From Bradyrhizobium sp. AZCC 1693 (lineage in GTDB: Bacteria > Pseudomonadota > Alphaproteobacteria > Rhizobiales > Xanthobacteraceae): a stretch of 64,000 nucleotides of DNA. The stretch is from NCBI RefSeq assembly GCF_036924745.1, contig NZ_JAZHSD010000001.1:4216001-4280000 (forward strand), in the 5' to 3' direction. Below, in pieces: positions 3,979 through 52,783 of this stretch (position 1 is the stretch's first letter; every line of letters starts with the position of its first letter). The translations under genes were made by a program, and so were the position numbers. The notes below the pieces were generated by a model. That model searched no databases and was not told the DNA's origin. It saw only the letters and a list, made by a program, of their open reading frames with translations.

Positions 3979-4115
3979 GGAACGAGGTTAGGTCATGGCG
4001 ACGTTCGACTCTGGCAGACAGCGTTACTCTATGAACTTCTACGCAATTCATCAGCGGCCGCTCCAGCGGCGGAGCTACACTGGCCGCCCAAGCAGACCTG
4101 CTGAAGGTCAGCTAA

Positions 4116-6457: not shown

Positions 6458-7062
6458 GTGGTTGCCCGTCCGGCGTGCGAGCACGCTTCGAGGGACCGAA
6501 TTTGACAAAAAACATCGCCGCCGCACTGCCGGATCGTACCAACGCCGCAGTCTAGAGCTGCTTCACGCCGAACCCGGCGACGAAAGCTGCGATAACGATC
6601 ATATGGCGGCGCTTGGTAGAAGATCCTAGCGCGTGAGGCTATCCGTTGACGATCATCGTCAAACGGCACAGCCCGTCAATCAGCCGGAGGTCCACACAGA
6701 GAGGTTCTTAGGTCCTATGATCAAGGTACCGTACAGATCTCGGCATCAATTGACATCCGTTAGACGCATCATGGACGTTCACCATTGCGCATGGGCGAAG
6801 GAGACTCTGAGTCCGCGAGTCTCGTCGTCCGCACTCGCTTTTTCGGTGTCCTACCGTGAGGTGATTACAATTGTAGCACACAACGGCATTCGGCTCCTAC
6901 CTTGAGTGGCTGACGGCGAACCGCTGATCGGGCCACGGATGGAGGATGGACGGTTTCGGGAACCAGTCTTCCGCCAGCCTCTTGCTCGCCAAAGACCTGA
7001 AGGTGGGTGTATGATTTTCTTTTAATTGGATCTCCGTGCAATGGGATGACGGAGAGCTTTCA
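6458..7062. other. divergent intergenic region with a palindrome
   Basis: Lies between the opgC-like gene and the response regulator. It holds the palindrome at 6646-6662 and no convincing gene; a 90-residue frame at 6633-6905 has no ribosome site. Confidence 0.45.
6646..6662. promoter_or_regulatory. palindromic operator-like site
   Basis: TTGACGAT-C-ATCGTCAA is an 8-bp perfect inverted repeat around one central base, sitting in a divergent promoter region. The cognate regulator is unknown. Confidence 0.35.
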
Positions 7063-9891: not shown

Positions 9892-9905
9892 TTGATAAGG
9901 ATCAA
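9892..9905. promoter_or_regulatory. FNR/FixK box
   Basis: TTGATAAGGATCAA is a perfect TTGAT-N4-ATCAA palindrome, 57 bases upstream of the MASE1 kinase start on the minus strand. A weaker relative (TTGAC-CATT-ATCAA) occurs at 10295-10308. Confidence 0.65.
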
Positions 9906-31865: not shown

Positions 31866-33310
31866 TCAGGCGGCGCGGATGGCTGCAATCAGGCGTGGTT
31901 TGCCGACGATGTTCATCACCCGTGTGAGGTTATAGGCGAGAACATGCAGCGCCATCTCGGCGGCGACATTCGGTAGGCGCTTCATCAGGAAGTGGGTCGC
32001 ACCCATACGGGCTTTGATCGTGCCGAAGGGATGCTCAACTGTCTCGCGTCGCGTCCGCATGGCCTCGGGATTGGAATCGAGCCGTCTCTGGACCTCCTCG
32101 ACCACATGCTCATGCTCCCAGCGCGTGATGCGGCGCTCTTTGGACGGCGTACATTGGCTCTTGATCCCGCAGCCTTGGCAAGCTGCCGTCGACCAGTAAC
32201 GGCGCAGCGTCATCCCATGTCGACGTTGGTGTAATGATAGGGCAGCAGCTGGCCCGACGGGCAGCGGTAGACGTCCTCTTCAGGCAGATAGGCGAAGTCC
32301 TGTTTGCCGAACCGGCCCTCCGCCTTCGCGCCCGACGTCATCGGCTTGGGCAAGGTGACTGACACGCCAGCCTCTTCGCAGGCCAGTATCTCCTGTCCGT
32401 CGAAGTAGCCACGGTCGGCGACTGCATCGAGCTTGTCCACGTCGAGCGTCTCTTTGGCCTGCTTCGACATCCGAGCAAGCTGTCCACGGTCGTTGCCGAC
32501 GTTGATGACCTCGTGCGTAACGATCAGATGGTGTTCGGTGTCCACGGCGACCTGGACATTGTAGCCGACGACGCCCGATCCGCGTCCGCTGGTGGCCATC
32601 GAACGGGCATCCGGATCGGTGAGCGATATCTGTTGATCCGGCGTGTTGCGCATCTGCGCGTCGAGCGCTTCCAGGCGGCTCATCTCCTGCTTCAGCCGAG
32701 CGATCTTTTCTTTGATCCTCGTCGTCTTGATGCTGATCGCTTCCGATGGCTCCTGCCGATCGGCGCTATCGAGTTGACGAAGATATCGACCGACGCTTTC
32801 CTCGATCTGCGCCATCCGCCTCGCCATCTTGGCGTGTGTGAAGTTGCGGTCGCGGTTGTTCACCGCCTTAAACTTGCTGCCGTCGATTGCGACGCTTGGG
32901 GTCTGCAACAGGCCCATTTGCCGGCATAGCGCAACGAACTTCGCGCAAACCTTCCGGATCGCCGCGCCATTGTCCTTCCGGAAATCGGCGATCGTCTTGT
33001 GATCGGGAGCCAGGCGCCCGATCAGCCACATTACCTCGACATTGCGGCACGACTCACGTTCCAGGCGGCGACTGGATTGCACCCGATTGAGATAACCGTA
33101 GATGTAAAGCTTCAGAAGGACTGCCGGATGATAGCAGGGCCGGCCCGTCTCCTTGGCGATCACACGCTCAAACCCCATTCCATGCAGGTCGAGCGCCTCG
33201 ACGAACACATCGATCACATGGACCGCGTTGTCCTCGCCTACCCAATCCTCCAAACATTCCGGCAAGAGCGTCAGCTGGGATCTGTCCGCGCCTTCAACGA
33301 AGCGTCCCAT
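31866..33310 (-). pseudogene. IS1182-family transposase, one frameshift
   Basis: Starts MGRFVEGADRSQLTLLPECL at 33310 and matches IS1182 transposases through GYNVQVAVDTEHHLIVTHEV and AVADRGYFDG. Near 32210-32213 the frame breaks (NVDMG, stop) and continues in the next frame as MTLRRYWSTAACQGCGIKSQ to RRETVEHPFGTIKARMG at the C-terminus. A one-base loss explains the split. A programmed frameshift is possible in principle, but this family normally uses one frame. Terminal inverted repeats were not resolved. Confidence 0.82.
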
Positions 33311-33636
33311 CCGTATCCCCCAATCAGGAAACGGAGGAATCGTAGCCGACTCGCGGCTTTTCACACAGCCAGGGTCAATACCAGTCTCGGCCAGCATGCA
33401 GGATTTAGGGCAAGATCCGGCCGACTTACTGCGCGGCAACCGTAATCTACCCTCGCTCGATATGCGGGCCTTCGAAAGGTAGCGCGGCCCCGTGATACCG
33501 CTACGCCATAGGTCATGTTGCCGCGCGATCAAAACGCACGCGACGAAACGTAGCATTGTATTCTTGTGCGTGAAGGCACGTTCTTTCGACAGAGTGTATT
33601 TTATCGCTGGTGGGCGCGTTCGATAGAGGCCAGCGC

Positions 33637-38174: not shown

Positions 38175-38780
38175 CTAGCGAGCCTTTGCCATGGCGCCGC
38201 GCACCACCTCGGCGATGCGCTCGCCTGGCGTGTCCGCGTCAAGACCGCGCACGAATTTGCCCTCAGCGTCCATCAGGTAGAGATAGGTGCTGTGGTCCAT
38301 GACGTAATCCCCGGCGCCCGGTCCGCTCTTACGAGGTTCGTAATAGACTCCGTATTCCTGAGCAGCGGCAGCGATCTGCTGTGGCGTGCCGGTGAGTCCG
38401 ACGATCCTCGAATCAATTGACTGGGTGTAGTTCGCCATAACTGCTGGCGTGTCGCGCTGCGGATCGATTGTGATGAACAACGGTTGGAGCTTGTCGGTGT
38501 CGGGACCGAGCTTCTCGAGCGCAGTGGAAATCTCAAGGAGCGCCGTCGGGCAGCTATCGGGACACGAAGTGAAGCCGAAATAAACCAGAAGCCATTTCCC
38601 ACGGTAGGTCTGATCCGTGACCGTCGCGCCGTCAGGTGAGGTGAGTGTGAACGGGCCGCCGATCGTCGCCGGCGCGTTGGCCGCGCGTACGAGCGGTTGG
38701 CTCAGCGCCAAGGCGGTCGCGACAGCAATGCCGAAAGGCATTACCCGCCCAAGATCCGAGAATATGGGACGGCGACGCAT
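38175..38780 (-). CDS. SCO1/SenC copper metallochaperone
   Basis: 201 residues from ATG 38780, with GGGAGG eight bases upstream. A signal anchor (VMPFGIAVATALALSQPLVR) is followed by the thioredoxin-fold SCO domain with the copper cysteines in TSCPDSCPT (C73, C77) and the third ligand histidine in VMDHSTYLYLMD (H163). SCO proteins deliver copper to oxidase assembly. It is divergent from the oxidase cluster across a 200-base promoter region and upstream of the hemA pseudogene. Confidence 0.92.
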   Translation of the reverse strand: MRRRPIFSDLGRVMPFGIAVATALALSQPLVRAANAPATIGGPFTLTSPDGATVTDQTYRGKWLLVYFGFTSCPDSCPTALLEISTALEKLGPDTDKLQPLFITIDPQRDTPAVMANYTQSIDSRIVGLTGTPQQIAAAAQEYGVYYEPRKSGPGAGDYVMDHSTYLYLMDAEGKFVRGLDADTPGERIAEVVRGAMAKAR

Positions 38781-38984
38781 CAAATGCCTCCCGCGGCTGC
38801 GGTCCTTATCCGCCACAAACCTCCCTCTCGCTTCAGCAGGTGTTTCTTAGACGATTTTTGCCCTCAGGCTTCATAAGCTTTGCTTAAGGTTTCGAAAAGG
38901 AGTTCTGATTTTCCTAACCCCTGTAAATGGCGGTTAGCTCTCGACGAAATTTCCTGCGAACGTCAAAGATCAAGAGAGTGTGCG

Positions 38985-39743
38985 ATGACTGGCTTAGCCA
39001 TTAAGTGGCTGATCGGGGTGTCGTCGATGGTCGCGGCAGTGACAACGCCGCTCCCAGCGTCAGCCTACGAAGCGAGCACGGTCGCGGGCGGCGGATCGAT
39101 CACCGGCAAAGTCGTGTTCAACGGACCCCCCGGTACCCGCAAGGTCATTCCGACCAAGGACATCGAGGTGTGCGGCGGTCCCTACGAGGAGACGCTCATT
39201 CAGGTCGGGCCGGACAAGAGCGTACAGAACGCCGTCGTGTATCTGGCCGATATCGCGAAAGGAAAAGCTTGGCCGGCGGAAGCCAAGAAGCCGGAGATCA
39301 ACAACAACAAGTGCAAATTCGAACCCAACATTCAGGTGATACGCGTGGGTGGGCTGGACGTCGTCAACAGCGATCCGATGCTCCACAACACGCACGGCTA
39401 TTACGGCAAGCGCACCGTGTTCAACCTCGCTCTCCCCAACCAAGGTCAGCGAATTCCCGTCGAGTTGCCGCGGCCAGGCGAGGTGCGCATCGATTGTGAC
39501 GCACATGGCTGGATGGAAGCGTTTATCTATGTCGCCGACAATCCCTACTACGCCGTCACTGGCGCCGACGGCAAATTCACCATCCCTGACGTTCCGGCCG
39601 GAACCTACAAGCTGGTGGCGTACCAACCCTTCACCGGCCCGAATGAGCAGACGGTGACCGTAGCGGCGGGGAAGCCGAGCGATCTGAATATCGAACTGAA
39701 GAAGGGCGCCTCTTCGGCGCAAGGCGGCTCCGGCGCGAAGTAA
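38985..39743 (+). CDS. periplasmic cupredoxin-like/carboxypeptidase-regulatory-like protein
   Basis: 252 residues with a signal peptide ending near PLPASAYEA. The N-terminal half is a beta-rich domain (GGSITGKVVFNGPPGTRKVI). Residues 134-177 carry a type 1 copper pattern: H134 and H137 in MLHNTHGYYG, then C171, H174 and M177 in IDCDAHGWMEAF. The C-terminal 60 residues look like a carboxypeptidase regulatory-like beta sandwich (GKFTIPDVPAGTYKLVAYQP). Similar proteins occur near methylamine utilisation genes. As the first gene of the oxidase cluster, it is a candidate electron carrier or copper donor. Confidence 0.75.
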   Translation: MTGLAIKWLIGVSSMVAAVTTPLPASAYEASTVAGGGSITGKVVFNGPPGTRKVIPTKDIEVCGGPYEETLIQVGPDKSVQNAVVYLADIAKGKAWPAEAKKPEINNNKCKFEPNIQVIRVGGLDVVNSDPMLHNTHGYYGKRTVFNLALPNQGQRIPVELPRPGEVRIDCDAHGWMEAFIYVADNPYYAVTGADGKFTIPDVPAGTYKLVAYQPFTGPNEQTVTVAAGKPSDLNIELKKGASSAQGGSGAK

Positions 39744-39857
39744 AGGGCTTCTGCGGCTCGACCCGAGCCGAAGGAACACGAAAATCTGGCGACGTGGTGA
39801 ACAGCCGGAGTCGTCTCGCGGAGAGGAGCGACGCCTTGTAACCAAGGGAGGAAACGC

Positions 39858-40988
39858 ATGTCCGAGCTTGAGCGCGACCGGCGTGAAATAGCTGCGGTGC
39901 TCGAACAGCCCGGGGTGCGTCCTGACCCCTCGCTGCGGATTACCCGACGCACCTTCCTGCACAGATCATGTCTGGTCGGGGCGGCGACCGTAGCCGAGAC
40001 CTTCGCTTGGTGGCCGCTGCTCAACACACTCGACGTAGCTTATGCGGCCGAGGCGCCATTCAAGTTCGCCTGGATTTCCGACACCCATCTCTATCCGAAG
40101 TCCCTTAATACGCGCTTCGTCGAGAAAACGGTGCGTGCTGCCAAGGAGGTGCAGGCGATGAGTCCGCCGGCCGACTTCCTGATTTTCGGTGGCGACCTGG
40201 CCCAGCTTGGCAAGGTCGAAGAACTTGAGCTCGGTGTGGAGATCTTGAAAGAAATCAACATCCGCAAGGTCTACATTCCGGGCGAGCACGATTGGTACCT
40301 CGACATGGGTAAGAAGTGGGGCGAACTGTTCGGTCAGCCCAACTGGACATTCGACCACAAGGGCGTGCGCTTTGTCGGGCTCGACACCGTCAGTCGCGGT
40401 CCGGACTATTGGACGGCGAAGAAGATGAGTCCCGAGGAGCGCATGGGTCACATGGCCACGCTCGACGGCACCGTCGCTGGCCCGTGGGCGGGCGTCGGCC
40501 GCGATCAGCTCGACTGGCTGCAGAAGACGCTTGCCAATTGGGATCGGGACCGGCCGGTCGTGATCTTCAGCCACAATCCGCTCTACGAATACTATCCGCC
40601 GTGGAACTTCTGGGTGCGCGACTGGCGCGAGGTGAACGAGGTGCTCAAGCCCTACACCAAAGTCACCAACATCCACGGTCACACGCATCAGGTGCTCTAC
40701 AACGAAATCGGCACCATGCGCTCGATCGGCATGCTGGCAACCTCATGGCCTTGGCCTTACGCGCCGGAAGGGGTGCCGAAGCTTACAAAGCCTATGATCC
40801 GGGTCGACCCTGGTGATCACTTTGACGGGGTCGGTTGGGCCAAGATCGACGTCAGCGCGCAGGACAAAGTCGACGCCGAATACGTAATGTGGCGCAAGCA
40901 GGTGTATGCGCAGTCTCCAGATGACTATGCGAAGAGCATTCCCGAGGTTTTGCGGCCCCGGGTCGCTGACAGTATGTGGCCATATTAG
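39858..40988 (+). CDS. Tat-exported metallophosphoesterase
   Basis: 376 residues. The twin-arginine signal ITRRTFLHRS is at residues 28-37. The calcineurin-type motifs follow in order: AWISDTHLYP (D75, H77), FGGDLAQ (D113), GEHDWY (GEHD instead of the usual GNHD), SHNPL and HGHTHQ. The metal ligands are thus present, except that the asparagine of GNH(D/E) is replaced by glutamate. Periplasmic location is expected. The substrate is unknown; its place between a cupredoxin-like gene and the cytochromes suggests a role in oxidase maturation or heme/copper handling. Confidence 0.88.
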   Translation: MSELERDRREIAAVLEQPGVRPDPSLRITRRTFLHRSCLVGAATVAETFAWWPLLNTLDVAYAAEAPFKFAWISDTHLYPKSLNTRFVEKTVRAAKEVQAMSPPADFLIFGGDLAQLGKVEELELGVEILKEINIRKVYIPGEHDWYLDMGKKWGELFGQPNWTFDHKGVRFVGLDTVSRGPDYWTAKKMSPEERMGHMATLDGTVAGPWAGVGRDQLDWLQKTLANWDRDRPVVIFSHNPLYEYYPPWNFWVRDWREVNEVLKPYTKVTNIHGHTHQVLYNEIGTMRSIGMLATSWPWPYAPEGVPKLTKPMIRVDPGDHFDGVGWAKIDVSAQDKVDAEYVMWRKQVYAQSPDDYAKSIPEVLRPRVADSMWPY

Positions 40989-40999
40989 GAGGAATGGGC

Positions 41000-41455
41000 A
41001 TGACCGCGCCGATAACAAGCCGTTTCATTCTGTTCCGCGCTGCCCCGGCGGTAGCGCTGGCCGTCTTGGTCGGCCCTGCCGGTGCGCACAAGGATCCGGT
41101 GACGCCGCAGCTGCTGAACTCCTACCAGCAAGTGTTCATGGAGCAGGTCCGCAAAGGCGACCTGCTGTTCCATGGCGATGCCGCAACCGAGGAGGCGATG
41201 GGGGTCGTGTTGTCTAAGACGGGAATGGCCTGTGCCATGTGCCATCCCATGACGGCCGATACCCACCCCGCCACGTTCCCGAAGTTCCAGGCGCAGATGG
41301 CCAAGTTCGCGACGCTGCGCGACATGATCAATTGGTGCATCGAGAAACCCAACCAGGGAGAAAAGATCGCCGATGACTCGGAAGCGATGAAGGCTTTGGA
41401 AGCGTACATCTACTGGTCGCAGAGCGGCTCGGTGTTGAACCCGGGCAAGTTCTGA
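41000..41455 (+). CDS. monoheme cytochrome c
   Basis: 151 residues from ATG 41000, with AGGAGG seven bases before it. A signal peptide (FILFRAAPAVALAVLVGPAG) leads to a soluble domain with one heme site CAMCH and a downstream HPMTADTHPATFPKFQAQM. It is 11 bases after the phosphoesterase gene and before the oxidase subunits, so it is probably the direct electron donor to the oxidase or a link from the sulfur module. It is not a canonical CcoP. Confidence 0.82.
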   Translation: MTAPITSRFILFRAAPAVALAVLVGPAGAHKDPVTPQLLNSYQQVFMEQVRKGDLLFHGDAATEEAMGVVLSKTGMACAMCHPMTADTHPATFPKFQAQMAKFATLRDMINWCIEKPNQGEKIADDSEAMKALEAYIYWSQSGSVLNPGKF

Positions 41456-41564
41456 TTTCGATGCTGCGAAGCGGAGGCTTCTAGCGCGGGTCATTGCTGT
41501 CGAAGCTGCGTCTACCCGAGAACAGGAGAGAACGTACTAACAGAAAAGCAAGGGGGAATGCTCC

Positions 41565-43022
41565 ATGGCGGAAGTGTTTCCGGCAGAGAGACTGCGCGGC
41601 AGGTTCAGCGGGATCAATTTGGATGATCTGGTCGATTGGCGCGTAGTCCGAACCTGGCTTTATTGGGGCATGTTCTGGCTCCTCGTCATGCCATCGGTCG
41701 GCGTGGCGATCTCGGGTCTCTTCAATTATCCGGATTACCTTGGGACCAATAATCTCGGGCTGACCTTCGGCCGGCTTCGGCCCGTCCATGTCAACGGCGT
41801 CATCTTCGGCGCCTTTTCCGCCCTCTTCATCGGCGAATGTCATTATCTGGTCCCGCGCCTCTGCGGGGTGCGGGTGCCATGGGCGCAATGGGGCGTACCG
41901 CTGGCATGGCTGTATAACATCAGCCTGGCGGCGGGGCTGATCTCGCTGCCTTTTGCGCAGAACCATGGTCTGGAGGCGGGCGAGCTCCCGCTCTTCGCCG
42001 AGATTCCCATCTTCATCGTCATCGCGGCGACAACGGCACAGTTCCTCCTCACCATCGCACAACGCCTCGAGGCGCCGCTTTATGTGGCCCTCTGGTATCT
42101 CATCGGGGCCTTCGTGTGGACGACGATGAATCTCATGCTGGGCAGCTTTATTCTCCCCTACACGATTCCAGGCATTAACAGCGCCGCGTTCCACGGCCTC
42201 TACATCCACTACATCGTCGGACTATGGCTCACGCCCGCAGGCTACGTGCTCATCTACTATTTCCTACCGGTCACTGTGCGCAATCCGCTCTACGCACACC
42301 AGCTGTCGCTGGTGGGCTTCTGGTCGCTCGCGCTGTTCTATCCCTTCGTTGGCATCCACCATTATCTGTATAGCCCGATCGCCGATTGGACCGAGACTCT
42401 CGCGATCGTTACCTCCATGTTGCTGATCATTCCCGTGTGGACGGTGCTGGTGAACTTCTTCGGTACCGTGAAGGGGCGTTGGGATGGTTTCGGGAAGAAT
42501 CTCCCGGCGAAGTTCCTGATCATGGGCTCGCTGATGTACTTGGCCGGTTGCTTCCAGGGTTCGACCGAGGCGTTGCGCTCGATCCAGCAGCCCACCCATT
42601 TCACCGACTTTGTCATCTCACACTCGCACCTCACCGTCTTCGGCACATTCGTGGTCTGGGCGATGGGCGGTCTGATTTACGTGTGGCCGCGCGCGTTCAA
42701 ACGCGAGCTTTGGTCATGGACGCTTGGCAACTGGTCGTTCTGGCTGATCACCGTCGGTATTTCCACCATGGGTCTGGTGCTTACCGCTGGCGGCCTGCAG
42801 CAAGGCTTCGAATGGATGAATGGCACCGAGTGGCTCGACACGGTGGTCCGAATGAAAGCCTATTGGCTGGTACGTACCCTCAGCGGCATCACGATGGACA
42901 TCGGGATGTCCCTGCTCGTCTTCAATCTTATGATGACCGCGCTTAGTCGCCCGGCCGAGGGAAGAGAGCCCGTTCCAGTCCCAGGCGCTGCCCCAGTTCC
43001 CGCCGGAGGGCCAGCTGAATGA
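41565..43022 (+). CDS. ccoN: cbb3-type cytochrome c oxidase catalytic subunit, CcoN-like
   Basis: 485 residues, 12 membrane helices. Heme b and CuB ligands can be placed: H75 in LRPVHVNGVIFGAF, H215 in GLYIHYIVGLWLTPAG, the tyrosine Y259 and the histidine pair H265/H266 in FYPFVGIHHYLYS, and H353/H355 in FVISHSHLTVFG. The presence of the tyrosine-histidine active-site pair argues for an oxygen reductase rather than a NO reductase. The sequence is divergent from standard CcoN, and no separate CcoP or CcoQ gene of normal kind follows. The last four bases overlap the next gene's start. Confidence 0.9.
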   Translation: MAEVFPAERLRGRFSGINLDDLVDWRVVRTWLYWGMFWLLVMPSVGVAISGLFNYPDYLGTNNLGLTFGRLRPVHVNGVIFGAFSALFIGECHYLVPRLCGVRVPWAQWGVPLAWLYNISLAAGLISLPFAQNHGLEAGELPLFAEIPIFIVIAATTAQFLLTIAQRLEAPLYVALWYLIGAFVWTTMNLMLGSFILPYTIPGINSAAFHGLYIHYIVGLWLTPAGYVLIYYFLPVTVRNPLYAHQLSLVGFWSLALFYPFVGIHHYLYSPIADWTETLAIVTSMLLIIPVWTVLVNFFGTVKGRWDGFGKNLPAKFLIMGSLMYLAGCFQGSTEALRSIQQPTHFTDFVISHSHLTVFGTFVVWAMGGLIYVWPRAFKRELWSWTLGNWSFWLITVGISTMGLVLTAGGLQQGFEWMNGTEWLDTVVRMKAYWLVRTLSGITMDIGMSLLVFNLMMTALSRPAEGREPVPVPGAAPVPAGGPAE

Positions 43023-44707
43023 GTGCGCGCTTTGTCGCTCTGGTGGCCGGGGTCTTCTTCTTCTTCCTTGCCGTGGTCACGCAGGGAATCCTACCCTTTA
43101 TTGAGCCGTCGGCGCGGACGACCAACGTGACCGCCGTGGTCCGGACCGATTTTGCTCAGCTCAAATGGGTAGTGACCGAGGCCACTGACTATACGCCCCT
43201 GCAGAAGCTCGGCCGCCAAGTGTATCTGCGCGAGGGGTGTTGGTACTGCCATTCGCAATACGTGCGTCCGGTGACCGGCGAGACGCGCCGTTGGGGCCCG
43301 GTCTCCGAGGCAGGCGAATACGCCTTCGATGTGCCGCACCTGTGGGGCACCCGGCGTATCGGGCCGGATCTGACGCGGGTCGGGCTCAAGTACAGCGACG
43401 AATGGCATCTCGCGCATTTCTGGAATCCCCGGATGCTCTCGCCGGATTCGAATATGGCGCCTTTTCGGGGACTGTTCGAGATGCCCGCGGAATCCGTCAA
43501 GATTGTCGATGACGGAGCCGGTAATCGTAGCCTGGAACGAACGCCCGTTACTGAGAAGCTCTTCGCATTCGCGAGCAAGGAGCAGATTAAGCTCACGCCG
43601 AACGCCGATGGACTTCTCTTTGTGCCCATGCAGGCGCGCGGCAAGGCTCCGATCATCTGGACACCGAACAAGGAATATACCGGCGACACCGTCAACATCG
43701 CCGCCGAGACAGAAGCGCTTCAGGGTCTCATCGCGTATCTCCAAAAACTTGGCATGAATCGCGGAAAGTGGCGGGATCTGTTTGAGCCGCAAAAGCTCGA
43801 AGTTACCGATGCGACGATGCCGCGATCGGGCGAATGGATCGCCTACGGCAAGGAGGTCTACCAGCGGCGATGCGTCGGCTGTCACGGGGCGAACGGCGAC
43901 GGCAATGGACCGGCTGCGACCTTTCTGAACAAGCAGCGCCCGAGGAGCTTTGCGGCGGCCGTTTTCAAGTTCAGGCTAACCAAGGAGCCGTTGCCAACTG
44001 ACGGCGACCTCCTGCGCACAATTACGCGAGGTGTTCGGGGCACGGCGATGCCGGCCTGGCACGAGCTGCCTTTGACAGACCGCCTCGCTGTCATTCAGTA
44101 CATCAAGTACGAGCTGGCGGTCGACCGCTCCGATCCGGCAAAGCCCTATGCCTATTTCAAGGAAGAACCGCCGGGTCCGCCCCTGTACATCGGGCGGCCG
44201 CCTGTTCCGTCTGAGCAGATGCTCACTCGCGCCAAGGATGTATGGCAGAATGCAAAGTGTTGGGAGTGCCATGGCCGAACCGGGAAGGGTGATGGCGAAA
44301 AGGCTCCCGGGCTGAAGGACGATCTAGGCTTTCCAAGCCCGCCCGCGGACCTTACCGCCGGCCAATTCAAGTCAGGTCCTACAGTTGAGGACATCTTCCG
44401 CACTATGACGACCGGGTTGAGCGGCACGCCCATGCCATCCTACCGGGATCCGTTGTCGGAAGAGGACCGCTGGGCGCTCTCCTACTACGTGCTTGCGCTA
44501 TCGGCCTACAAGGATCCGCTGACGGGCGAACCGCTGCCAATCGCCCCCAGTGATCGCAGGGCACTCAACGATCCTGCGCTCGAGGCCGATACGCCGGACA
44601 AAGCCTACGTCCCAAGCGGCCGCGCCGCAGCGAGCCGCGGCGGCGCTCACGTCTTGGCCGGCCGCAACGGGAATAGCGTGGCCGTGCAACGGGCCGCCGA
44701 GGAGTAA
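43019..44707 (+). CDS. ccoO: CcoO-type subunit fused to two extra cytochrome c domains (three hemes)
   Basis: 562 residues. An N-terminal membrane helix (RFVALVAGVFFFFLAVVTQG) and residues 1-250 match CcoO: heme site CWYCH (C74, C77, H78), RWGPVSEAGEY, GPDLTRVG and the methionine ligand in SPDSNMAPF. Two further class I cytochrome c domains follow: CVGCH (C285, C288, H289) with GTAMPAWH, and CWECH (C414, C417, H418) with GTPMPSYRDP. In usual oxidases these two hemes are on a separate CcoP. Here they are joined to CcoO, and the CcoP membrane anchor may be the separate small gene at 44865. Confidence 0.92.
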   Translation: MSARFVALVAGVFFFFLAVVTQGILPFIEPSARTTNVTAVVRTDFAQLKWVVTEATDYTPLQKLGRQVYLREGCWYCHSQYVRPVTGETRRWGPVSEAGEYAFDVPHLWGTRRIGPDLTRVGLKYSDEWHLAHFWNPRMLSPDSNMAPFRGLFEMPAESVKIVDDGAGNRSLERTPVTEKLFAFASKEQIKLTPNADGLLFVPMQARGKAPIIWTPNKEYTGDTVNIAAETEALQGLIAYLQKLGMNRGKWRDLFEPQKLEVTDATMPRSGEWIAYGKEVYQRRCVGCHGANGDGNGPAATFLNKQRPRSFAAAVFKFRLTKEPLPTDGDLLRTITRGVRGTAMPAWHELPLTDRLAVIQYIKYELAVDRSDPAKPYAYFKEEPPGPPLYIGRPPVPSEQMLTRAKDVWQNAKCWECHGRTGKGDGEKAPGLKDDLGFPSPPADLTAGQFKSGPTVEDIFRTMTTGLSGTPMPSYRDPLSEEDRWALSYYVLALSAYKDPLTGEPLPIAPSDRRALNDPALEADTPDKAYVPSGRAAASRGGAHVLAGRNGNSVAVQRAAEE

Positions 44708-44713
44708 TGAGCG

Positions 44714-44905
44714 ATGACCATCTATTTCGAGATCGTCGGCCCCTACATTGCAGCCTTGATGATGAGTCTCGGTGCACTCTGCGTCTTCATTTGGGGCGTG
44801 CTCTCGGGCGCCTTCCGCGGCGCCGACGATGCATCCATACAGTTCCTGCAGAGGGAGATCGGCGATGACGGATCCGACGCGCACGCCAAGCACGACGGCG
44901 AATAA
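44714..44905 (+). CDS. CcoS-like small membrane protein
   Basis: 63 residues with GAGGAG upstream. One N-terminal span (VGPYIAALMMSLGALCVFIW) then GVLSGAFRGADDASIQFLQ, which matches the CcoS pattern of a Trp/Ser-Gly loop followed by acidic residues and a helix. CcoS is needed for cofactor insertion into cbb3 oxidases. It overlaps the next gene by 41 bases. Confidence 0.7.
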   Translation: MTIYFEIVGPYIAALMMSLGALCVFIWGVLSGAFRGADDASIQFLQREIGDDGSDAHAKHDGE

Positions 44906-45074
44906 CAGCTCACCCGCCGAGACGGAGGAGATGGAGGAGTATGCCGGTGGCACTATTCAATCTCGCCACGGCTACATTCCGGTGTGGCTGTTGGCTGTCT
45001 ATGTCGTCCTCTTCATCTGGGCGCTGTACTATCTCGTCGTCTATTGGGGTGGGCTGGGACCGGGACGTGTCTAG
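44865..45074 (+). CDS. small membrane protein resembling a CcoP N-terminal anchor without heme domains
   Basis: 69 residues from ATG 44865, with GGGAGA upstream. A hydrophilic, Thr/Ser-rich N-terminus (EMEEYAGGTIQSRHGYIPVW) precedes one aromatic membrane helix (LLAVYVVLFIWALYYLVVYW). This layout recalls the membrane anchor of CcoP, but no heme site follows. Since the diheme part appears fused to CcoO, this may be the left-over anchor acting as a structural subunit (inference). Confidence 0.65.
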   Translation: MTDPTRTPSTTANNSSPAETEEMEEYAGGTIQSRHGYIPVWLLAVYVVLFIWALYYLVVYWGGLGPGRV

Positions 45075-45133
45075 CGATCCCGACCCACCTGCAAGCTGGT
45101 GACTGATTCCGATTCGAAATAAAGGAGCAGGAA

Positions 45134-45256
45134 TTGCCGGTTCAGAAGGAGCAGAAGGTGCTGGTAGCCAGGATCATTCTCGCCCTCGTGGCCTTCAATC
45201 TGCTGTTCCTGTTTATCGAGTTAGCCATAAACGTAGTCCGTGTCTATTTCGGCTGA
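45134..45256 (+). CDS. 40-residue membrane peptide of the oxidase cluster
   Basis: TTG start with AAAGGAGCAG immediately upstream. MPVQKEQKVLVARIILALVA then FNLLFLFIELAINVVRVYFG: one long span with a basic N-terminus. Position and size suggest a CcoQ-like or CcoM-like accessory subunit (inference). Confidence 0.6.
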   Translation: MPVQKEQKVLVARIILALVAFNLLFLFIELAINVVRVYFG

Positions 45257-45270
45257 CCAGGAGGGCGCGC

Positions 45271-45393
45271 ATGATCGAGAATCCGGTTTTTTCGCTCGCC
45301 GATGCGAGTGCGATCCAGATCATCGCGCTTGCCGGCTTCGCGATAGCCACCGTCGCATTCTTCATTTGGGTCGCCTATCTCGTGCGTGGGTAG
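45271..45393 (+). CDS. second 40-residue membrane peptide of the oxidase cluster
   Basis: ATG with AGGAGGGCGCGC directly upstream. MIENPVFSLADASAIQIIAL then AGFAIATVAFFIWVAYLVRG: one span ending in FIWVAYLVRG, as in small oxidase subunits of the CcoQ kind. It follows the previous peptide after 14 bases. Confidence 0.6.
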   Translation: MIENPVFSLADASAIQIIALAGFAIATVAFFIWVAYLVRG

Positions 45394-45450
45394 CGGCGGC
45401 GAATCGGTGCCGTCACTGCACAAGCGTTGGATGGGCAGGGCAATCTGCCG

Positions 45451-46170
45451 ATGACCGCCTATCTCGTGATCTTCGTCGCAGGGTTCGCCGGCAGTTTTCA
45501 CTGCATCGGTATGTGCGGCGGGTTCGCTTGCGCGCTGGGCCGCGATCCGCAGGGACGCGGCGCGACAGTTCTGCGCCATCTTCTGTACAATACCGGTCGA
45601 TTGACGACCTACTGCTTTCTCGGCGGACTCGCCGGCGCCATCGGCCAGGTCATATGCACGCCGCAGGGAACGACAGTCCCGCTGCTGGGCGGTCCGCTTG
45701 ACACCGGTCAGCGGATTCTCGCGATCCTCGCCGGACTGCTGATGATCGCCATGGCGCTGCAGTTCTTTGGCCTGCTGCCGCGCCTGCATCGCATCACGAC
45801 AGGCTCCGGCGCCAGCACCCTCGCGGCATCCCTGGGCAGCCTGTTGACGGCGCCGGGACATGCCGCCCCGCTCGCGTTTGGCGTATTCAATGGCTTCCTG
45901 CCTTGTCCGCTGGTCTACGCCTTTGCCGCCCAGGCGGCCAGCACGGCCGGAGCGTTGCCGGGCTTTCTCACCATGGCAGCGTTCGGGCTTGGGACCTTCC
46001 CCGCAATGCTTCTGATGGGCGGCGTCGGCCGAGCGCTGGCGCCGGCGTGGCGGCAGCGCGGCGTGTGGCTGGCCGGCAGTTGCATTCTGCTGCTCGGTCT
46101 CGTCACCGTTGGCCGCGGCATCCTGCCCTTCGCCGTGCACTTCGCGCATGGTTGGACAGAACCAGCATGA
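45451..46170 (+). CDS. SafE/TauE-like membrane protein of the oxidase biogenesis group (COG2836 type)
   Basis: About 239 residues from ATG 45451 (a TTG at 45427 adds eight). Six to seven helices. The signature FAGSFHCIGMCGGFACALG places cysteines and a histidine in the first helix, and NGFLPCPLVYAFAA supplies another Cys-Pro pair. Proteins of this kind accompany ccoI in many genomes and are thought to take part in copper delivery or export. Its stop overlaps the start of the P-type ATPase gene. Confidence 0.85.
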   Translation: MTAYLVIFVAGFAGSFHCIGMCGGFACALGRDPQGRGATVLRHLLYNTGRLTTYCFLGGLAGAIGQVICTPQGTTVPLLGGPLDTGQRILAILAGLLMIAMALQFFGLLPRLHRITTGSGASTLAASLGSLLTAPGHAAPLAFGVFNGFLPCPLVYAFAAQAASTAGALPGFLTMAAFGLGTFPAMLLMGGVGRALAPAWRQRGVWLAGSCILLLGLVTVGRGILPFAVHFAHGWTEPA

Positions 46171-48365
46171 CGGCCCAGGACCATGCGCTGTGCAGCCACT
46201 GCCTGTTACCCATCGGGCGGCGGGCGATGCGACGCACGGTGAACGGTGAGACTTGCGCATTCTGCTGCTACGGCTGCTGTATCGCCTACCAGGTCAAGCA
46301 CGGCAAAACCGAGGAATGGGAGGCTGCTTGGCTGCTGATTCGGCTCGGTGTCGGCGGCTTTCTCTCCATGAATATCATGCTGTTCAGCCTGCTCCTGTAC
46401 AGCGACGCCTTCAGCGGCGCGGATGCCGAGATGCTTCCCTGGATTCATCTTCTGCTCTGGCTGTTCGCAACACCCGCGGTGATCATTCTCGGCGGACCGT
46501 TTCTGCGCGAGGCGTGGCTCCACGGCATGGAGGGGCGCCTGACCTCCTCGGCACTCATCGTGCTCGGCGTCGGCGCCGCCTACCTTTATTCCGCTTTTGC
46601 CACCATCGAGGGCAGCCCGCACGTTTACTTCGATACGGCCACCATGGTGCTGATGCTGTTCACGGCGGGCTACTATCTCGACGCCGCCGGGCGTGCACGG
46701 GCGGCGCGTGACCTGCAGCCGCTCTTGGCCGCGGAAAGTGAGTGGGCCACCGTCGTCATTGGCGACGGTGAGTACCGCCGGCCGGTGCGCGAGGTTGACG
46801 CAGGTGTGCTGGTTCGAGTTCGGCCGGGCGAACGCATTCCCGTCGACGGCGTGATCATGGAGGGCGAATCGCACACCGACGAGGCCCTGATCACAGGCGA
46901 AAGCCGGCAGATCGCCAAGGGCGTCGGCTCGCATGTGATCGCCGGCAGCATCAATCTTGACGGGCCGCTCCTGATCCAAAGCAGCGGCGTGGCAAACGCG
47001 ACCCGCTGGGCGCAGATTTGTCGATCGGTACGGGATGCATTGATCCGCCGCAGCCCGAGCCAGCGTCTCGCCGACAACATTGTAGGCGTCTTCGTGCCGA
47101 TTATTCTCGTGCTGGGCATTGGAGCGTCGGTGTACTGGGCGCGGCACTTGCCGTTCGACCGTGCGCTACTGATCGGCCTTGCCGTACTGGTGGTGGCCTG
47201 TCCCTGCGCAGTCGGGCTGGCGGCACCGATGGCCACCTCGCTGGGCATCGGACGGCTGGCCCGACACGGCTGCCTGGTGCGCGACCCGGCCGCGCTTGAG
47301 GCGCTGGCGCGCATCCGGCTGATCGCCTTTGACAAGACCGGCACGCTTACCTCGGGTCAGGCGCGCGTTGTCGCTATCGACAGCGATGGAACCCGCGCCG
47401 ATGTGGTGCTCGCGCATGCCGCCGGACTGGAACGCCATTCCGAGCACGGCTTGGCCCGCGCTATAGCTGCAGCGGCAGCTGCGCGCGGGCTCGAGCCAGT
47501 CGCCATCCACGACGTTCGAGTCCTGCCGGGACGTGGCATCCGTGGCAAGTCGGACGGTCGGATCGTGGCGGCAGGCAGCGCCGCATTGATGCGGGAGTTG
47601 GATTGGTCGCTGACGCCAAATCTGGCTGAGTGCGGGAGACGGCGTGAAGCGAGCAGCCATTCCGTGATCTATGTCGGCTGGGGCGAGCGGGCATATGCTG
47701 TGCTTTCACTTGACGATACGCCGCTGCCGGAGGCGCGCTCGACCGTCGAAGCGCTGCGCTGCCGTGGGGTGCGCGTGACGCTGTTGACCGGCGATCTTCC
47801 GGCAGCCGCAGTGCGGATTGCCGCTGCGGTCGGAATTGAGAGCGGCGATATCGAGGCGGGCCTCACACCCGAGGCCAAACGCGCGGCGCTGGAACGCCGC
47901 CGGCATGACCATGGCATGGTAGCGATGGTTGGCGACGGCCTCAATGACGCGCCGGTGTTGGCCGGAGCCGATGTCGGCATCGCCGTCGGTTCGGCGACGG
48001 ACCTCGCTCGCGAGGCCGCAGCGGTCGTGCTCCCACCCGGGGGGCTACGGACGCTGCCGTGGGTGATCGACGTCGCTCGCGCCGTTCGCGCGACCATTCT
48101 CACCAACCTGGCGTGGGCGTTCGGTTATAATCTCATCGCCATTGGGCTGGCGATGGCCGGAGTCCTCCAGCCAGTGCTGGCGGCGGCAGTGATGGCCGGC
48201 TCAAGCATCATCGTCGTCCTGAATTCGCTGCGGCTGGAGCGGCTGCCCGAGCCAGCTCCATCCGCCGCCGCGGAGGGCGCCCCTCCACCTCGCAGCACCG
48301 CCGTTCCGGTCAATAGCGAAGCTCTCCAAGCGGGTCGACCCGCCTGTCCAGTGCCGCCGATTTGA
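46167..48365 (+). CDS. ccoI: copper-transporting P1B-type ATPase, CcoI/FixI-like
   Basis: About 732 residues from ATG 46167, overlapping the preceding stop. The N-terminus has a cysteine-rich metal domain (CSHCLLPIG, then CAFCCYGCCIAYQV), typical of CcoI. Then follow the actuator TGES motif (ALITGESRQ), the metal site CPC in VVACPCAVGLAAP, the phosphorylation site DKTGTLTSG and the hinge MVGDGLNDAPV. CcoI exports copper for cbb3 assembly. It closes the rightward cluster. The HP-locus reads ERHSEHGLARA, as in copper ATPases. Confidence 0.93.
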   Translation: MTAQDHALCSHCLLPIGRRAMRRTVNGETCAFCCYGCCIAYQVKHGKTEEWEAAWLLIRLGVGGFLSMNIMLFSLLLYSDAFSGADAEMLPWIHLLLWLFATPAVIILGGPFLREAWLHGMEGRLTSSALIVLGVGAAYLYSAFATIEGSPHVYFDTATMVLMLFTAGYYLDAAGRARAARDLQPLLAAESEWATVVIGDGEYRRPVREVDAGVLVRVRPGERIPVDGVIMEGESHTDEALITGESRQIAKGVGSHVIAGSINLDGPLLIQSSGVANATRWAQICRSVRDALIRRSPSQRLADNIVGVFVPIILVLGIGASVYWARHLPFDRALLIGLAVLVVACPCAVGLAAPMATSLGIGRLARHGCLVRDPAALEALARIRLIAFDKTGTLTSGQARVVAIDSDGTRADVVLAHAAGLERHSEHGLARAIAAAAAARGLEPVAIHDVRVLPGRGIRGKSDGRIVAAGSAALMRELDWSLTPNLAECGRRREASSHSVIYVGWGERAYAVLSLDDTPLPEARSTVEALRCRGVRVTLLTGDLPAAAVRIAAAVGIESGDIEAGLTPEAKRAALERRRHDHGMVAMVGDGLNDAPVLAGADVGIAVGSATDLAREAAAVVLPPGGLRTLPWVIDVARAVRATILTNLAWAFGYNLIAIGLAMAGVLQPVLAAAVMAGSSIIVVLNSLRLERLPEPAPSAAAEGAPPPRSTAVPVNSEALQAGRPACPVPPI

Positions 48366-48496: not shown

Positions 48497-49765
48497 CTAG
48501 CCGAATGTGTCACGCGTAAAGGCAGAGTACCAGCTTTGCGCCTCGCGTGCGGCCCGGTGGCGGTTTTCGGCGCTTTCCTGCACCTGGCTGACGAAGTTGT
48601 CGACGATCTTGATCGTTCCGGCCGCGGGCTTGAAGCTGATAGCATTGCTCACTGCATCGTCGGGGCTAAGAAAAGTATAGCAAGTGTTGAACAAATGAGA
48701 CGATTGACGCTCGGACCCGGTCAGCGCCGCGGATATGGCAAACGCGCAGGCCTTGGCTTGGCTATTCGCAACGAACGCCGATTTCGGCATGTCGCCGGCA
48801 CTGCTCGCATCGCCTACCACATGAATTCCCGGCTGTAGCGTCGATTCGAACGTTATGGGATCGATCGGGCACCAGCCAGAATGATCCACGAGGCCGTTTT
48901 GCTGCGCGAACTGGCCAGCCATTTGCGGGGGTATGACATTTGCGACCGCGGCCTTGAATGTCTCGCTCGCAGTCTTGACGGATCGCTCCTTCACGTCGAT
49001 GGCCTTTATTCCACCGGTGAATTGGGCAGGTAGCCACTCGATCATACCCCGATAGTGTCGCCCCCACGCATCCAGAAATAGATCCTGCGCGTTGAAGCTA
49101 TCTTTCGCATCGAGAATCAGGATCCTCGAGCGCGGCTTATGCTGTTTGAAATAATAAGCAACCAGAGAGGCACGTTCGTATGGGGCGGGCGGACAGCGGA
49201 ACGGGTTAGGGGGCGCGACGAGCACGAAGACGCCGCCATCCTCCATGCTTTCGAGCTGCCGTCGCAGCAGCTGCGTCTGCAGGCCTGCGTTCCAGGCATG
49301 CGGGATGACCTGCGTTGCCGCCTCGTCATACCCTGCGAGGGCCTCGTAATTGAAAGCGATGCCGGGGGCAACGACGACGCGGTCGTAAGGTAATTTTGGA
49401 CCACTCTTGAGCCCGACGGTTTTTGCGACCGGATCAACCGCTGCCACGGAGTCATGAATAACATTTATGCCGTATCGTTGTGCAAGTGTCTCGTACCCAT
49501 GCGTAAGCGACTCGAGCGAGCATAGCCCAGCGAGATAGAGGTTGCTGAAAAAGCAGGTCGTATAGTTCGGCTTTGGCTCAACCAGCGTGACCTCGATCGT
49601 TGGCGCGCTGACGGCCAAGTACTTGGCGGCCGTGGCACCGCCGATGCCGCCGCCGACGACGACAACCCTCGCCTTGGATTCGCTTGCAGCCAATCGAGGA
49701 CCGAGCCCTGCAAGGACCATTGCTCCCGTCGAGCGGCCGAACTCTCGACGCGTCCAAGACTTCAT
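48497..49765 (-). CDS. fccB: sulfide dehydrogenase (flavocytochrome c) flavoprotein subunit
   Basis: 422 residues. A Tat signal (WTRREFGRSTGAMVLAGLG) precedes the FAD-binding motif VVVGGGIGGATAAKYL. Further family motifs are NYTTCFFSNLYLAGL with one redox cysteine, the FAD segment GIHVVGDASSAGDMPKSAFV, and the C-terminal FNTCYTFLSPDDA with a second cysteine. Flavocytochrome c oxidises sulfide and passes electrons to its heme subunit. Its start overlaps the end of the cytochrome gene by four bases, so the two are coupled. Confidence 0.92.
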   Translation of the reverse strand: MKSWTRREFGRSTGAMVLAGLGPRLAASESKARVVVVGGGIGGATAAKYLAVSAPTIEVTLVEPKPNYTTCFFSNLYLAGLCSLESLTHGYETLAQRYGINVIHDSVAAVDPVAKTVGLKSGPKLPYDRVVVAPGIAFNYEALAGYDEAATQVIPHAWNAGLQTQLLRRQLESMEDGGVFVLVAPPNPFRCPPAPYERASLVAYYFKQHKPRSRILILDAKDSFNAQDLFLDAWGRHYRGMIEWLPAQFTGGIKAIDVKERSVKTASETFKAAVANVIPPQMAGQFAQQNGLVDHSGWCPIDPITFESTLQPGIHVVGDASSAGDMPKSAFVANSQAKACAFAISAALTGSERQSSHLFNTCYTFLSPDDAVSNAISFKPAAGTIKIVDNFVSQVQESAENRHRAAREAQSWYSAFTRDTFG

Positions 49766-50079
49766 GGCCTAACCCGCCTGTTCAGCGCTGCGAGATAGCG
49801 CGCCACCGTCGCGATTTCTTCATCACTGAGCGAGAGGGCGATGGCACGCATGATATGGCTCGGGCGCTCACGCGATCTGTACGCAAGCATTGCGCGCGTG
49901 AGCATCTCCGGACCAATGCCGAGGATCGTCGGAATACCACCATCGCCGCCGTCCAGACGATGGCAGGACGCGCACATCGCGGCGAGTTGGGCTCCACCAT
50001 CGCGATCCGCTGCCTGGCTGGGATCGGCGAAAGTAATGAACGAACCTGCAGCAATGGAAGCGGCGATGATTTTGCGCAT
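49762..50079 (-). CDS. fccA: cytochrome c subunit of flavocytochrome c, monoheme
   Basis: 105 residues with a signal peptide (IIAASIAAGSFITFADPSQA). There is one heme site, CASCH, and a methionine region (IGPEMLTRAMLAYRSRERPS). It is shorter than the diheme FccA and close to the monoheme subunits of the SoxEF/FccAB group. It is translated just ahead of fccB and would carry electrons to the soluble cytochrome pool. Confidence 0.85.
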   Translation of the reverse strand: MRKIIAASIAAGSFITFADPSQAADRDGGAQLAAMCASCHRLDGGDGGIPTILGIGPEMLTRAMLAYRSRERPSHIMRAIALSLSDEEIATVARYLAALNRRVRP

Positions 50080-50168
50080 GCTGAGTCTGGCTCCATCCCC
50101 GTGTCTTCGATCGCCGATCCCTTTGCTCTTGGCGTGAAAAGGAGCATGGCAGCATTACTACAACATTA

Positions 50169-50495
50169 TTAGGCGACAGTGAGCTGGTGCTCCAATACAT
50201 AGATGCCACCGCCATCCTCCTCCCAAACGAATTCGAGCCGGCCGCTCTCTGTCGCGCGCAAGTAGAACTCGATAAAAGGATTCGTCGCCATTGCTTCGTG
50301 GAGATCGACGCTGAACACCACGACGCCATTGTGGCGGCAAGTAAACTTGTTGACGATCTTGCGCGGGATGACGTTGCCTTGGTCATCGTGCCGCAGCCCG
50401 GTCTCCATCGGATGGCTGATCAGTGTCTTCACAGGAAACACTTCACCGTTCGTGACGGCACTTGGCACTTGCACACGGGGCGCCGGAGTGAACAT
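50169..50495 (-). CDS. soxZ: thiosulfate oxidation carrier protein SoxZ
   Basis: 108 residues from ATG 50495, with GGAGG upstream. The beta-sandwich sequence includes RVQVPSAVTNGEVFPVKTLI, SHPMETGLR, and the end VWEEDGGGIYVLEHQLTVA. SoxZ pairs with SoxY to carry sulfur substrates. It follows soxY after 16 bases. There is no signal peptide, as expected: SoxYZ is exported by the SoxY Tat signal. Confidence 0.92.
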   Translation of the reverse strand: MFTPAPRVQVPSAVTNGEVFPVKTLISHPMETGLRHDDQGNVIPRKIVNKFTCRHNGVVVFSVDLHEAMATNPFIEFYLRATESGRLEFVWEEDGGGIYVLEHQLTVA

Positions 50496-50511
50496 TCCGC
50501 ACCTCCTTCCG

Positions 50512-50976
50512 TCACTTGCATCCGTTGGTGGCAACCTCGACCCAGGTTTCGGTCATCAGCAATGCACCGTCGTTCATCTCCGCCACCGCCAGAACGTATT
50601 GTGGTTCGGCGAGGCGAATACGCGTCGATACGCGGGGCTCGCTGCGTTGTGGGACGAAGTGGAACGTGGCGACCTCTACAAGCGGGTTTCGTGGCGCCAG
50701 TATAGAAACGTGCCTGACGTGATCGGCCTCGGTCATGGGACTATCGATCGCGAGCGTAAGCGGCACAGTGTATCCATTCGGAAAGGTCCGCGGCATCACC
50801 AGATGCAGACGATCGGATGCGGTCGGGGTTTTTCCGGTCGGTTGCTTGACGAGATCCACCGCGTAATCGTTCGGGGGCGGTGATAAGGCGAGAGCGGCGC
50901 TTGCAAAGCCAGAGCTCCCCGCAACGGCGGCGGTCAAGACGGTTCGGCGCGTAACGCCAAGTGGTTTTGTCTTCAA
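50512..50976 (-). CDS. soxY: thiosulfate oxidation carrier protein SoxY, with an unusual C-terminus
   Basis: 154 residues with a Tat signal (GVTRRTVLTAAVAGSSGFAS). The core HVRHVSILAPRNPLVEVATF and SEPRVSTRIRLAEPQYVLAV match SoxY. The substrate-carrying cysteine sits at the very end (VEVATNGCK) rather than in the usual GGCGG arm: one glycine is replaced, and a lysine follows the cysteine in place of two glycines. No soxA, soxX or soxB is present in the window, so this looks like a SoxYZ-FccAB module. Confidence 0.88.
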   Translation of the reverse strand: MKTKPLGVTRRTVLTAAVAGSSGFASAALALSPPPNDYAVDLVKQPTGKTPTASDRLHLVMPRTFPNGYTVPLTLAIDSPMTEADHVRHVSILAPRNPLVEVATFHFVPQRSEPRVSTRIRLAEPQYVLAVAEMNDGALLMTETWVEVATNGCK

Positions 50977-51139
50977 CGCGAGATCCTCGCTATCGACAGG
51001 CGGAACTCTCCAAGCGGGCGCTCGATATTTCTGACGTCAAAAATCTTACCATGGGTGCTCTCACAAGACGACTCCTCCTCGCGGGGGGCCTGCGACCGTC
51101 AGCGCGGCCGAGGGGGCGGTGTGCGCGATCGCGATCGGC

Positions 51140-52783
<1,644 letters not shown>

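Follow-up and report, generated by a model that had tools for sequence, protein, structure and literature searches.

A cbb3-type oxidase gene cluster encoding a three-heme CcoO fusion, conserved across bacterial phyla and likely linked to sulfur oxidation

The window analysed here is a stretch of 64,000 nucleotides from Bradyrhizobium sp. AZCC 1693 (positions 4,216,001-4,280,000; the genome of 7.6 Mb is a single contig) and harbours a variant cbb3-type oxidase gene cluster. The cluster encodes a CcoN-like catalytic subunit, a CcoO domain fused to two further cytochrome c domains, a CcoS-like protein of 63 residues (s63), a heme-less anchor of 69 residues (s69), two membrane peptides of 40 residues (s40a and s40b), a SafE-like protein and a CcoI-like ATPase, and is preceded by genes for a cupredoxin-like protein, a metallophosphoesterase and a monoheme cytochrome. 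Sequence comparison makes it very probable that the three-heme CcoO, the heme-less anchor, the CcoS-like protein and the two peptides mark a distinct gene set among the C-family oxidases. All genes named in an initial annotation of the window were found in place and are supported by their translations and ribosome sites, but the CcoS-like gene and the sox/fcc neighbours had not been listed. The latter belong to a divergent set, fccB-fccA-soxZ-soxY-groEL (48,497-52,783), located beyond the CcoI gene. Details of the features are presented in Table 1.

Table 1. Genes of the oxidase cluster, followed by flanking features, in coordinates of the window
Feature	Position	Strand	Basis
Cupredoxin-like protein with carboxypeptidase-regulatory-like C-terminal domain	38985..39743	+	PF13620 2.7e-10; CDAHGWM
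Tat-type metallophosphoesterase	39858..40988	+	PF00149 2.8e-12
Monoheme cytochrome c, SoxA/TsdA type (CAMCHP + MINWC)	40994..41455	+	PF21342 1.6e-10; best start ATG 40994
CcoN-like catalytic subunit, C-family oxygen reductase	41565..43022	+	PF00115 3.8e-65
Three-heme subunit, CcoO domain + Kustc0458-like diheme domain	43019..44707	+	FixO 1.1e-44; PDB 6h5l_B 5.4e-45
CcoS/FixS-like membrane protein, 63 aa (s63)	44714..44905	+	FixS match in 16/20 family members
FixP_N-like anchor, 69 aa, no heme motif (s69)	44865..45074	+	FixP_N 7.8e-5, 22.7 bits
Membrane peptide a, 40 aa (s40a)	45134..45256	+	TTG start, strong ribosome site
Membrane peptide b, 40 aa (s40b)	45271..45393	+	family HMM
DsbD_2 / 'TauE-SafE' membrane protein (SafE-like)	45451..46170	+	PF13386 2e-43
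CcoI-like copper P-type ATPase	46167..48365	+	PF00122 2e-44
SCO-family copper chaperone, divergent neighbour	38175..38816	-	translation; plasmid homologue annotated 'SCO family protein'
Flavocytochrome c sulfide dehydrogenase flavoprotein (FccB/SoxF-like)	48497..49765	-	PF21706 6e-47, PF09242 2.4e-15
Monoheme cytochrome adjoining FccB (CASCH)	49762..50079	-	PF13442 1.8e-6
SoxZ	50169..50495	-	PF08770 2.6e-27; TIGR04490 86.9 bits, cut-off 76
SoxY-like protein, C-terminal ...NGCK	50512..50976	-	PF13501 3.6e-28
groEL, next to soxY	51140-52783		
Transposase (DUF772/DDE)	32210-33556		

A scan of species genomes yielded 143 relatives, the best 80 of which were kept and correspond to 79 distinct loci; all counts out of 79 refer to these. 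They comprise 48 Pseudomonadota, 19 Rokuibacteriota, 3 SAR324, 2 each of Gemmatimonadota, Tectimicrobiota and Myxococcota, and 1 each of Methylomirabilota, Binatota and an unplaced bacterium, many of the loci being metagenome bins. A single-protein search returned 1,599 proteins, with identity down to 75% among the matches listed (best 120 of 1,599). The family is sparse near home, being present, besides the own genome, in 3 of 100 relatives (97, 83 and 68%), and two further members were met in a draw of 398 genomes of the phylum (97 and 55%). Plasmids carry the fusion as well (39 records from Sinorhizobium, Rhizobium and Phyllobacterium).

For counts of gene composition, loci with too little flanking sequence were left out (the minimum flank is given with each count), while L122, with two CxxCH motifs, and L117, in which the fusion is split over two open reading frames (ORFs), were kept. 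The CcoO-diheme fusion is present in 75/75 loci with at least 1,700 nt downstream, 74 of them with three CxxCH motifs, and the recurrence rules out an assembly error joining two genes. The genes s63 and s69 occur in all 74 loci with at least 2,300 nt downstream, and SafE-like plus CcoI genes in 44/64 loci with at least 5,500 nt. In the 65 loci with at least 4,000 nt upstream of CcoN, the cupredoxin is found in 51, the phosphoesterase in 48, the cytochrome in 48 and all three in 47, so that the co-occurrence of phosphoesterase and cupredoxin with the oxidase, proposed initially as a check, is observed in 48/65 and 51/65 upstream regions, respectively; 4 of the 65 regions contain a stand-alone diheme cytochrome and no phosphoesterase. 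No match to the upstream trio or to the small genes was seen at E 1e-6 in 16 control loci around other CcoN clades. In locus G457/L054 (5580-8684), CcoN, CcoO and the two cytochrome c domains form a natural single ORF of 1,034 aa with the anchor behind; a joint alignment of this ORF with separate CcoN and CcoO rows confused its two halves and was discarded. Of the distinct oxidase complex postulated earlier, the distinct gene set conserved across phyla is borne out, while the complex itself is a prediction from sequence.

Residue roles in CcoN were assigned by alignment to P. stutzeri CcoN, using the ligand numbers of that protein. The heme and CuB ligands and the Tyr-His-His site had been reported as intact, and indeed H215, Y259, H265, H266, H353 and H355 are present in 81/81 aligned CcoN sequences of the family and H75 in 80/81. 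Position 331 is occupied by Gln in all 81; across groups, this column contains Gln in 30/30 rows of this clade and 14/14 rows of other non-canonical groups as compared to Glu in 25/25 canonical rows. The window protein scores 215 bits with TIGR00780, for which the cut-off is 583 and matches above the cut-off score 592-887. In the CcoN phylogeny, which had been suggested as a further check, the 30 family rows are set apart by one branch (100/99) and the canonical rows by another (100/100). Support for the family clade is 100 (SH-aLRT) when NorB and L055 are omitted, and the sister relation to other non-canonical CcoN groups is unsure because of long branches. The monoheme CcoO partner typical of the C family is present, whereas three features of canonical cbb3 (CcoNOQP) are not: the TIGR00780 score, a diheme CcoP with its helix in one protein, and Glu at position 331.

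According to the available excerpt of PMC3084760, a tyrosine in helix VII is the mark of C-type oxygen reductases, nitric oxide reductases (NORs) are closest to the C type, and a missing active-site tyrosine is their mark. A divergent C-family sequence such as the window CcoN might therefore be considered as a NOR. We regard this identity as highly improbable and rejected it, since the tyrosine is present in 81/81 sequences; moreover, the own NorB-like protein of the genome lacks it in a rough alignment, and a separate norCB-like pair (named by eye) is encoded in the genome. Besides the window cluster, the genome carries further heme-copper oxidase genes. A canonical CcoN (713 bits with TIGR00780) at 1.008 Mb is followed by CcoO and then by a diheme CcoP (about 1.008-1.011 Mb). 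An ordinary ccoP elsewhere had been named as a possible partner of the window CcoN, but this diheme CcoP set has its own canonical CcoN.

The gene next to ccoN joins the CcoO domain (CWYCH) to two more cytochrome c domains (CVGCH and CWECH), as had been noticed initially and as is confirmed by its recurrence across the loci. The C-terminal heme pair matches Kustc0458 of Kuenenia (PDB 6H5L chain B, E 5.4e-45). A structure model of the fusion (mean pLDDT 78.8, with values below 50 at residues 75-102 and 104-123 around the CcoO heme) gives a TMt of 0.90 to 6h5l_B, and the correspondence in sequence and fold with the Kustc0458 diheme family applies to the C-terminal domain. With a hidden Markov model (HMM) built on the fused heme pair, four stand-alone diheme cytochromes from sister clusters reach 201-230 bits but six CcoP proteins only 15-42 bits, and on these scores CcoP was rejected as the nearest kin. 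Judged by sequence and model, the extra heme pair belongs to the Kustc0458 diheme family and not to that of CcoP. A point to the contrary is that, with a profile of CcoP, the fusion still reaches 47 bits and the stand-alone diheme cytochromes 43-61 bits, and for this reason a distant sequence kinship with CcoP remains. The HMM scores, together with the sequence and fold of Kustc0458, indicate that the hemes have been replaced and that only the membrane helix resembles a remnant of CcoP. The earlier suggestion that CcoP has been taken apart and redistributed is therefore retained for the heme-less, CcoP-like anchor, but not for the hemes, as CcoP's own were not moved to CcoO.

A second group of fusions (L011, L012, L055, L056 and L068), which also occurs within the same genus, likewise has a CcoO with three heme motifs. 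It shares Gln331 in four aligned rows, and its CcoN identity is 32-35%. In L056 and L068 the heme pair of this group is more CcoP-like (98 bits), that of L055 is ambiguous (70 bits with CcoP, 82 with the fused pair), and no anchor or CcoI match adjoins the fusion in L055, L056 and L068. Because the hemes of the second group are closer to CcoP (in L056 and L068), CcoO appears, in our own reading, to have gained extra hemes at least twice.

The presence of a 69-residue anchor without hemes, as initially described, is supported by its FixP_N-like sequence, the absence of a heme motif in it and its occurrence in 74/74 loci. Its FixP_N score lies below the curated threshold of 24.9 bits and FixP_N is matched in 8/20 family members; comparison with CcoP by hhalign gives 80.8%. 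In sequence the anchor resembles the CcoP helix, of which it appears to be a remnant. In Vibrio cholerae, the two helices of CcoP are enough for assembly, to go by a title cited in PMC9109917. The s63 protein of the window is itself only a weak match (FixS E 0.012, ccoS E 0.043), and its identity became clearer from the family comparison, in which the matched profile is PF03597. CcoS is needed for the cofactors of CcoN according to an excerpt of PMC8267372. BLAST matches of s63 (76) and s69 (75) are all at the expected place, with 0 elsewhere.

The two 40-residue membrane peptides are confirmed as recurring genes. BLAST alone detects s40a in 30/72 and s40b in 38/72 loci, while HMMs trained on these matches extend the numbers to 66/79 and 63/79 (E 0.05), with 0 matches elsewhere among 15,654 ORFs at the same threshold. 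No shared Pfam family was found among 13 s40a or 16 s40b members. In the Tectomicrobia loci L121 and L130 and in L140, and by eye also in L142, s40b is joined to the anchor in a single ORF. Non-synonymous substitution (dN) is lower than synonymous substitution (dS) for all four small genes in 4/6 comparisons (L067, L132, L088 and L090); of the others, dS is 0 in L065 for the two 40-aa genes, and the s40a alignment of L066 covers only 13 residues. Micro-subunits as such are not new, since CcoM of P. stutzeri is known as a subunit of 36 aa (excerpt of PMC10433244).

Among the upstream genes, the cupredoxin-like protein carries the sequence CDAHGWM, a type-1 copper-like motif. The candidate metal ligands of the phosphoesterase (D75, H77, D113, E143/H144, H239, H275 and H277) are conserved in 56/56 sequences, and its model (mean pLDDT 58) has GpdQ and Rv0805 as nearest folds. 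Two of its relatives without this oxidase were seen in other surroundings, one (L186) near pmoCAB-like genes, as named by eye, and the other (L191) adjoining a cytochrome c peroxidase gene on a Methylocystis plasmid. In the cytochrome, C121 is invariant (56/56) and aligns with the cysteine of TsdA and SoxA chains; in TsdA, the heme-ligand cysteine forms an S-thiosulfonate intermediate, as stated in an excerpt of PMC4423706. Matches of the cytochrome to LolC in the PDB are confined to its N-terminal signal-like part and were disregarded.

The trio of cupredoxin, phosphoesterase and cytochrome might alternatively handle copper or assist assembly of the oxidase instead of donating electrons to it. 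The neighbouring SCO, CcoI and CcoS-like genes encode factors for copper or cofactors, the trio accompanies this oxidase in the 47 loci mentioned above, and a phosphoesterase relative of 42% identity in G282 lies near pmoCAB-like genes (by eye) of a copper enzyme. However, the SoxA/TsdA-type cysteine of the cytochrome is what would be expected for sulfur chemistry and the motif in the cupredoxin is of the electron-transfer type, and we consider a copper-handling role of the trio quite improbable.

Association with sulfur genes extends well beyond the window. The genes soxY/soxZ are found in 40/79 loci by BLAST and 43/79 by HMM as compared to 1/16 control loci, the control loci being somewhat shorter (mean 14.5 vs 17.7 kb); fccA, groEL and hemA are neighbours in 27, 25 and 23 of the 79 loci, respectively. 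On S. meliloti pSymA and a Phyllobacterium plasmid, soxYZ, fccAB-like genes, SCO, hemA and groEL lie beside the trio and the oxidase, the SCO homologue adjoining the same genes as in the window. In 10 Rokubacteria/Tectomicrobia loci, a fused SoxYZ with a GGC arm (10/10) is encoded between the SoxA-like cytochrome and CcoN, and it is similarly placed in Methylomirabilota L139 and Binatota L146, giving 12 non-proteobacterial loci in all with fused soxYZ inside the operon. In L146 (4893-6595), the SoxYZ-like ORF at this place is followed by a pentaheme cytochrome.

At the genome level, SoxZ is present in 22/24 cluster-bearing genomes and in 60/150 background genomes of the phylum (Fisher 1.3e-6); 23 of the 24 were picked for loci without a soxYZ BLAST match, the own genome and that of L139 are included, and the copy of L139 and one copy of the own genome are local. 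SoxB exceeds its cut-off in 15/30 cluster-bearing genomes. The SoxYZ-type carriers match Pfam SoxY and SoxZ and possess the C-terminal cysteine (NGCK in the window, GGC in the 10 fusions). For SoxAX, one SoxA-like domain only was found (30.7 bits against a cut-off of 110), and neither SoxX nor SoxB was found in the cluster.

Taken as a whole, we favour the reading that the cluster represents a separate subfamily of C-family (cbb3-type) oxygen reductases, spread over several phyla and receiving its electrons from a periplasmic sulfur module; the oxidase likely serves sulfur oxidation. Several observations weigh against this. The genes soxYZ are not seen in 36/79 loci (some contigs being short), and the SoxZ background is already 40%, the genomes compared not being independent and many cases coming from other phyla. 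The window SoxY is below both NCBIfam cut-offs (98.5 of 172 bits for TIGR04487, 84.9 of 125 for TIGR04488) and matches best a model of SoxY paralogues, and the four fused SoxYZ scanned match best TIGR04557 (82-107 bits, cut-off 140), described as 'quinoprotein dehydrogenase-associated SoxYZ-like carrier'. Because these are the best matches, the SoxYZ-type carriers may not be those of a true thiosulfate Sox system. The thiosulfate contacts of TsdA, Arg109, Arg119 and Ser127 in the available excerpt of PMC4423706, correspond to Q107, M117 and P125 in the window cytochrome, as read by offset from the TsdA/SoxA alignment, and with these residues replaced, the substrate may be something other than thiosulfate itself. 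SoxB comes no higher than rank 47 among the fold matches of the phosphoesterase, and the true SoxB of the own genome sits elsewhere, outside the cluster; a close relationship of the phosphoesterase to SoxB was rejected, the protein being GpdQ-like by fold. Phosphoesterase relatives without this oxidase exist (42-47% identity), and G457 has the oxidase without the phosphoesterase.

The loci without local soxYZ also fit an alternative in which a rearranged cbb3 oxidase serves general low-oxygen respiration, the sox and fcc genes being incidental in an accessory island. In agreement with it, the rhizobial copies sit on accessory DNA such as symbiotic plasmids, and the transposase in the window suggests mobile DNA near the cluster. 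On the other hand, Rokubacteria, Tectomicrobia, Methylomirabilota and Binatota, lineages distant from rhizobia, have fused soxYZ within the operon, the SoxA/TsdA-type cytochrome is upstream in 48/65 loci, and SoxZ is enriched genome-wide. Furthermore, no FNR/FixK-like box with up to 2 mismatches is present between 38,478 and the start of the cluster; perfect boxes occur at 5334-5347 and 9892-9905, far from the cluster, and totals are near chance (19 vs 13.7 and 21 vs 16.9 expected). Control by FixK/FNR was rejected on these grounds, and we hold general low-oxygen respiration to be somewhat unlikely as the role of the oxidase.

In the sulfur-fed oxidase that we favour, CcoN is predicted to reduce O2 at its heme-copper site. 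CcoO and the Kustc0458-like diheme would form one membrane-anchored subunit in which three c hemes relay electrons to CcoN, the CcoP helix would survive as the 69-residue anchor, and the two 40-residue helices would complete the membrane part; the small proteins would thereby be subunits, in a stoichiometry that is likewise a matter of prediction. The CcoS-like protein, CcoI, the SafE-like protein and SCO could supply copper and heme. Periplasmic SoxYZ, the SoxA/TsdA-type cytochrome and the metallophosphoesterase are the presumed electron source, joined in rhizobia and SAR324 by the FccB-like flavoprotein, and delivery might proceed via the type-1 cupredoxin and/or the diheme arm. A replacement of SoxB by the phosphoesterase is speculative and rather unlikely. 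Only tentatively can a self-contained sulfur-to-oxygen unit be envisaged, in which the SoxA-like cytochrome loads sulfur on SoxYZ, the phosphoesterase acts as SoxB and the cupredoxin passes electrons directly to a dedicated three-heme oxidase, a Kustc0458-type arm and subunits made up of a helix alone standing in for its CcoP.

A sox row was also observed beside another non-canonical CcoN (6973-8619) in L058, where genes resembling soxYZ-soxA-soxX-soxB (225-4367; A, X and B named by eye) lie upstream and the oxidase genes encode CcoN, a monoheme CcoO and a separate monoheme cytochrome. Since this CcoN belongs to a different clade, an association with sox genes may extend further among the non-canonical oxidases of the C family.

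The composition of the cluster suggests that CcoP consists of two separable parts, a helix with a structural role and a heme arm that can be exchanged. It also marks out a widespread oxidase clade, the members of which are labelled as plain cbb3 subunit I in the sources. Should the link to sulfur prove correct, annotation overlooks a dedicated sulfur respiration in some symbiotic plasmids of rhizobia and in uncultured phyla from soil. No description of this variant was found in openly licensed PMC papers, either in the titles and abstract openings of the matches listed (at most 20 per search, of up to 175) or in the excerpts available, and the excerpts on cbb3 oxidases of Scalindua and other anammox bacteria, on S. 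meliloti AK21 and on Bradyrhizobium S23321 do not mention the window cluster.

In comparison to canonical cbb3 oxidases (CcoNOQP/FixNOQP), the cluster shares the CcoN fold with its heme, CuB and Tyr site, the CcoO domain, CcoI, the CcoS-like protein and a FixP_N-like helix, but it is without a diheme CcoP, takes its heme pair from another family, has Gln331 for Glu and adds two small proteins without shared Pfam relatives. The CcoO-cytochrome c fusions of PRK14486 / NF011054 are likewise CcoO proteins extended by cytochrome c; against this model (294 positions), the window fusion, with 562 residues and three hemes, scores 183 bits, the cut-off being 447. Kustc0458 contains the same diheme domain but sits in a HAO-like protein complex, as given by the title of the 6H5L entry, whereas the window domain is fused to CcoO. 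With Sox and TsdA systems, the cluster and its neighbours share a SoxYZ-type carrier, the SoxA/TsdA-type cytochrome cysteine and an FccB/SoxF-like flavoprotein, and SoxB and the window phosphoesterase have a common fold; the window cytochrome is monoheme whereas SoxA is diheme, and the operon of the window includes the oxidase. The nearest functional parallel that we met is the TsdA plus SoxB pathway in Erythrobacter, as described in an excerpt of PMC7608252.

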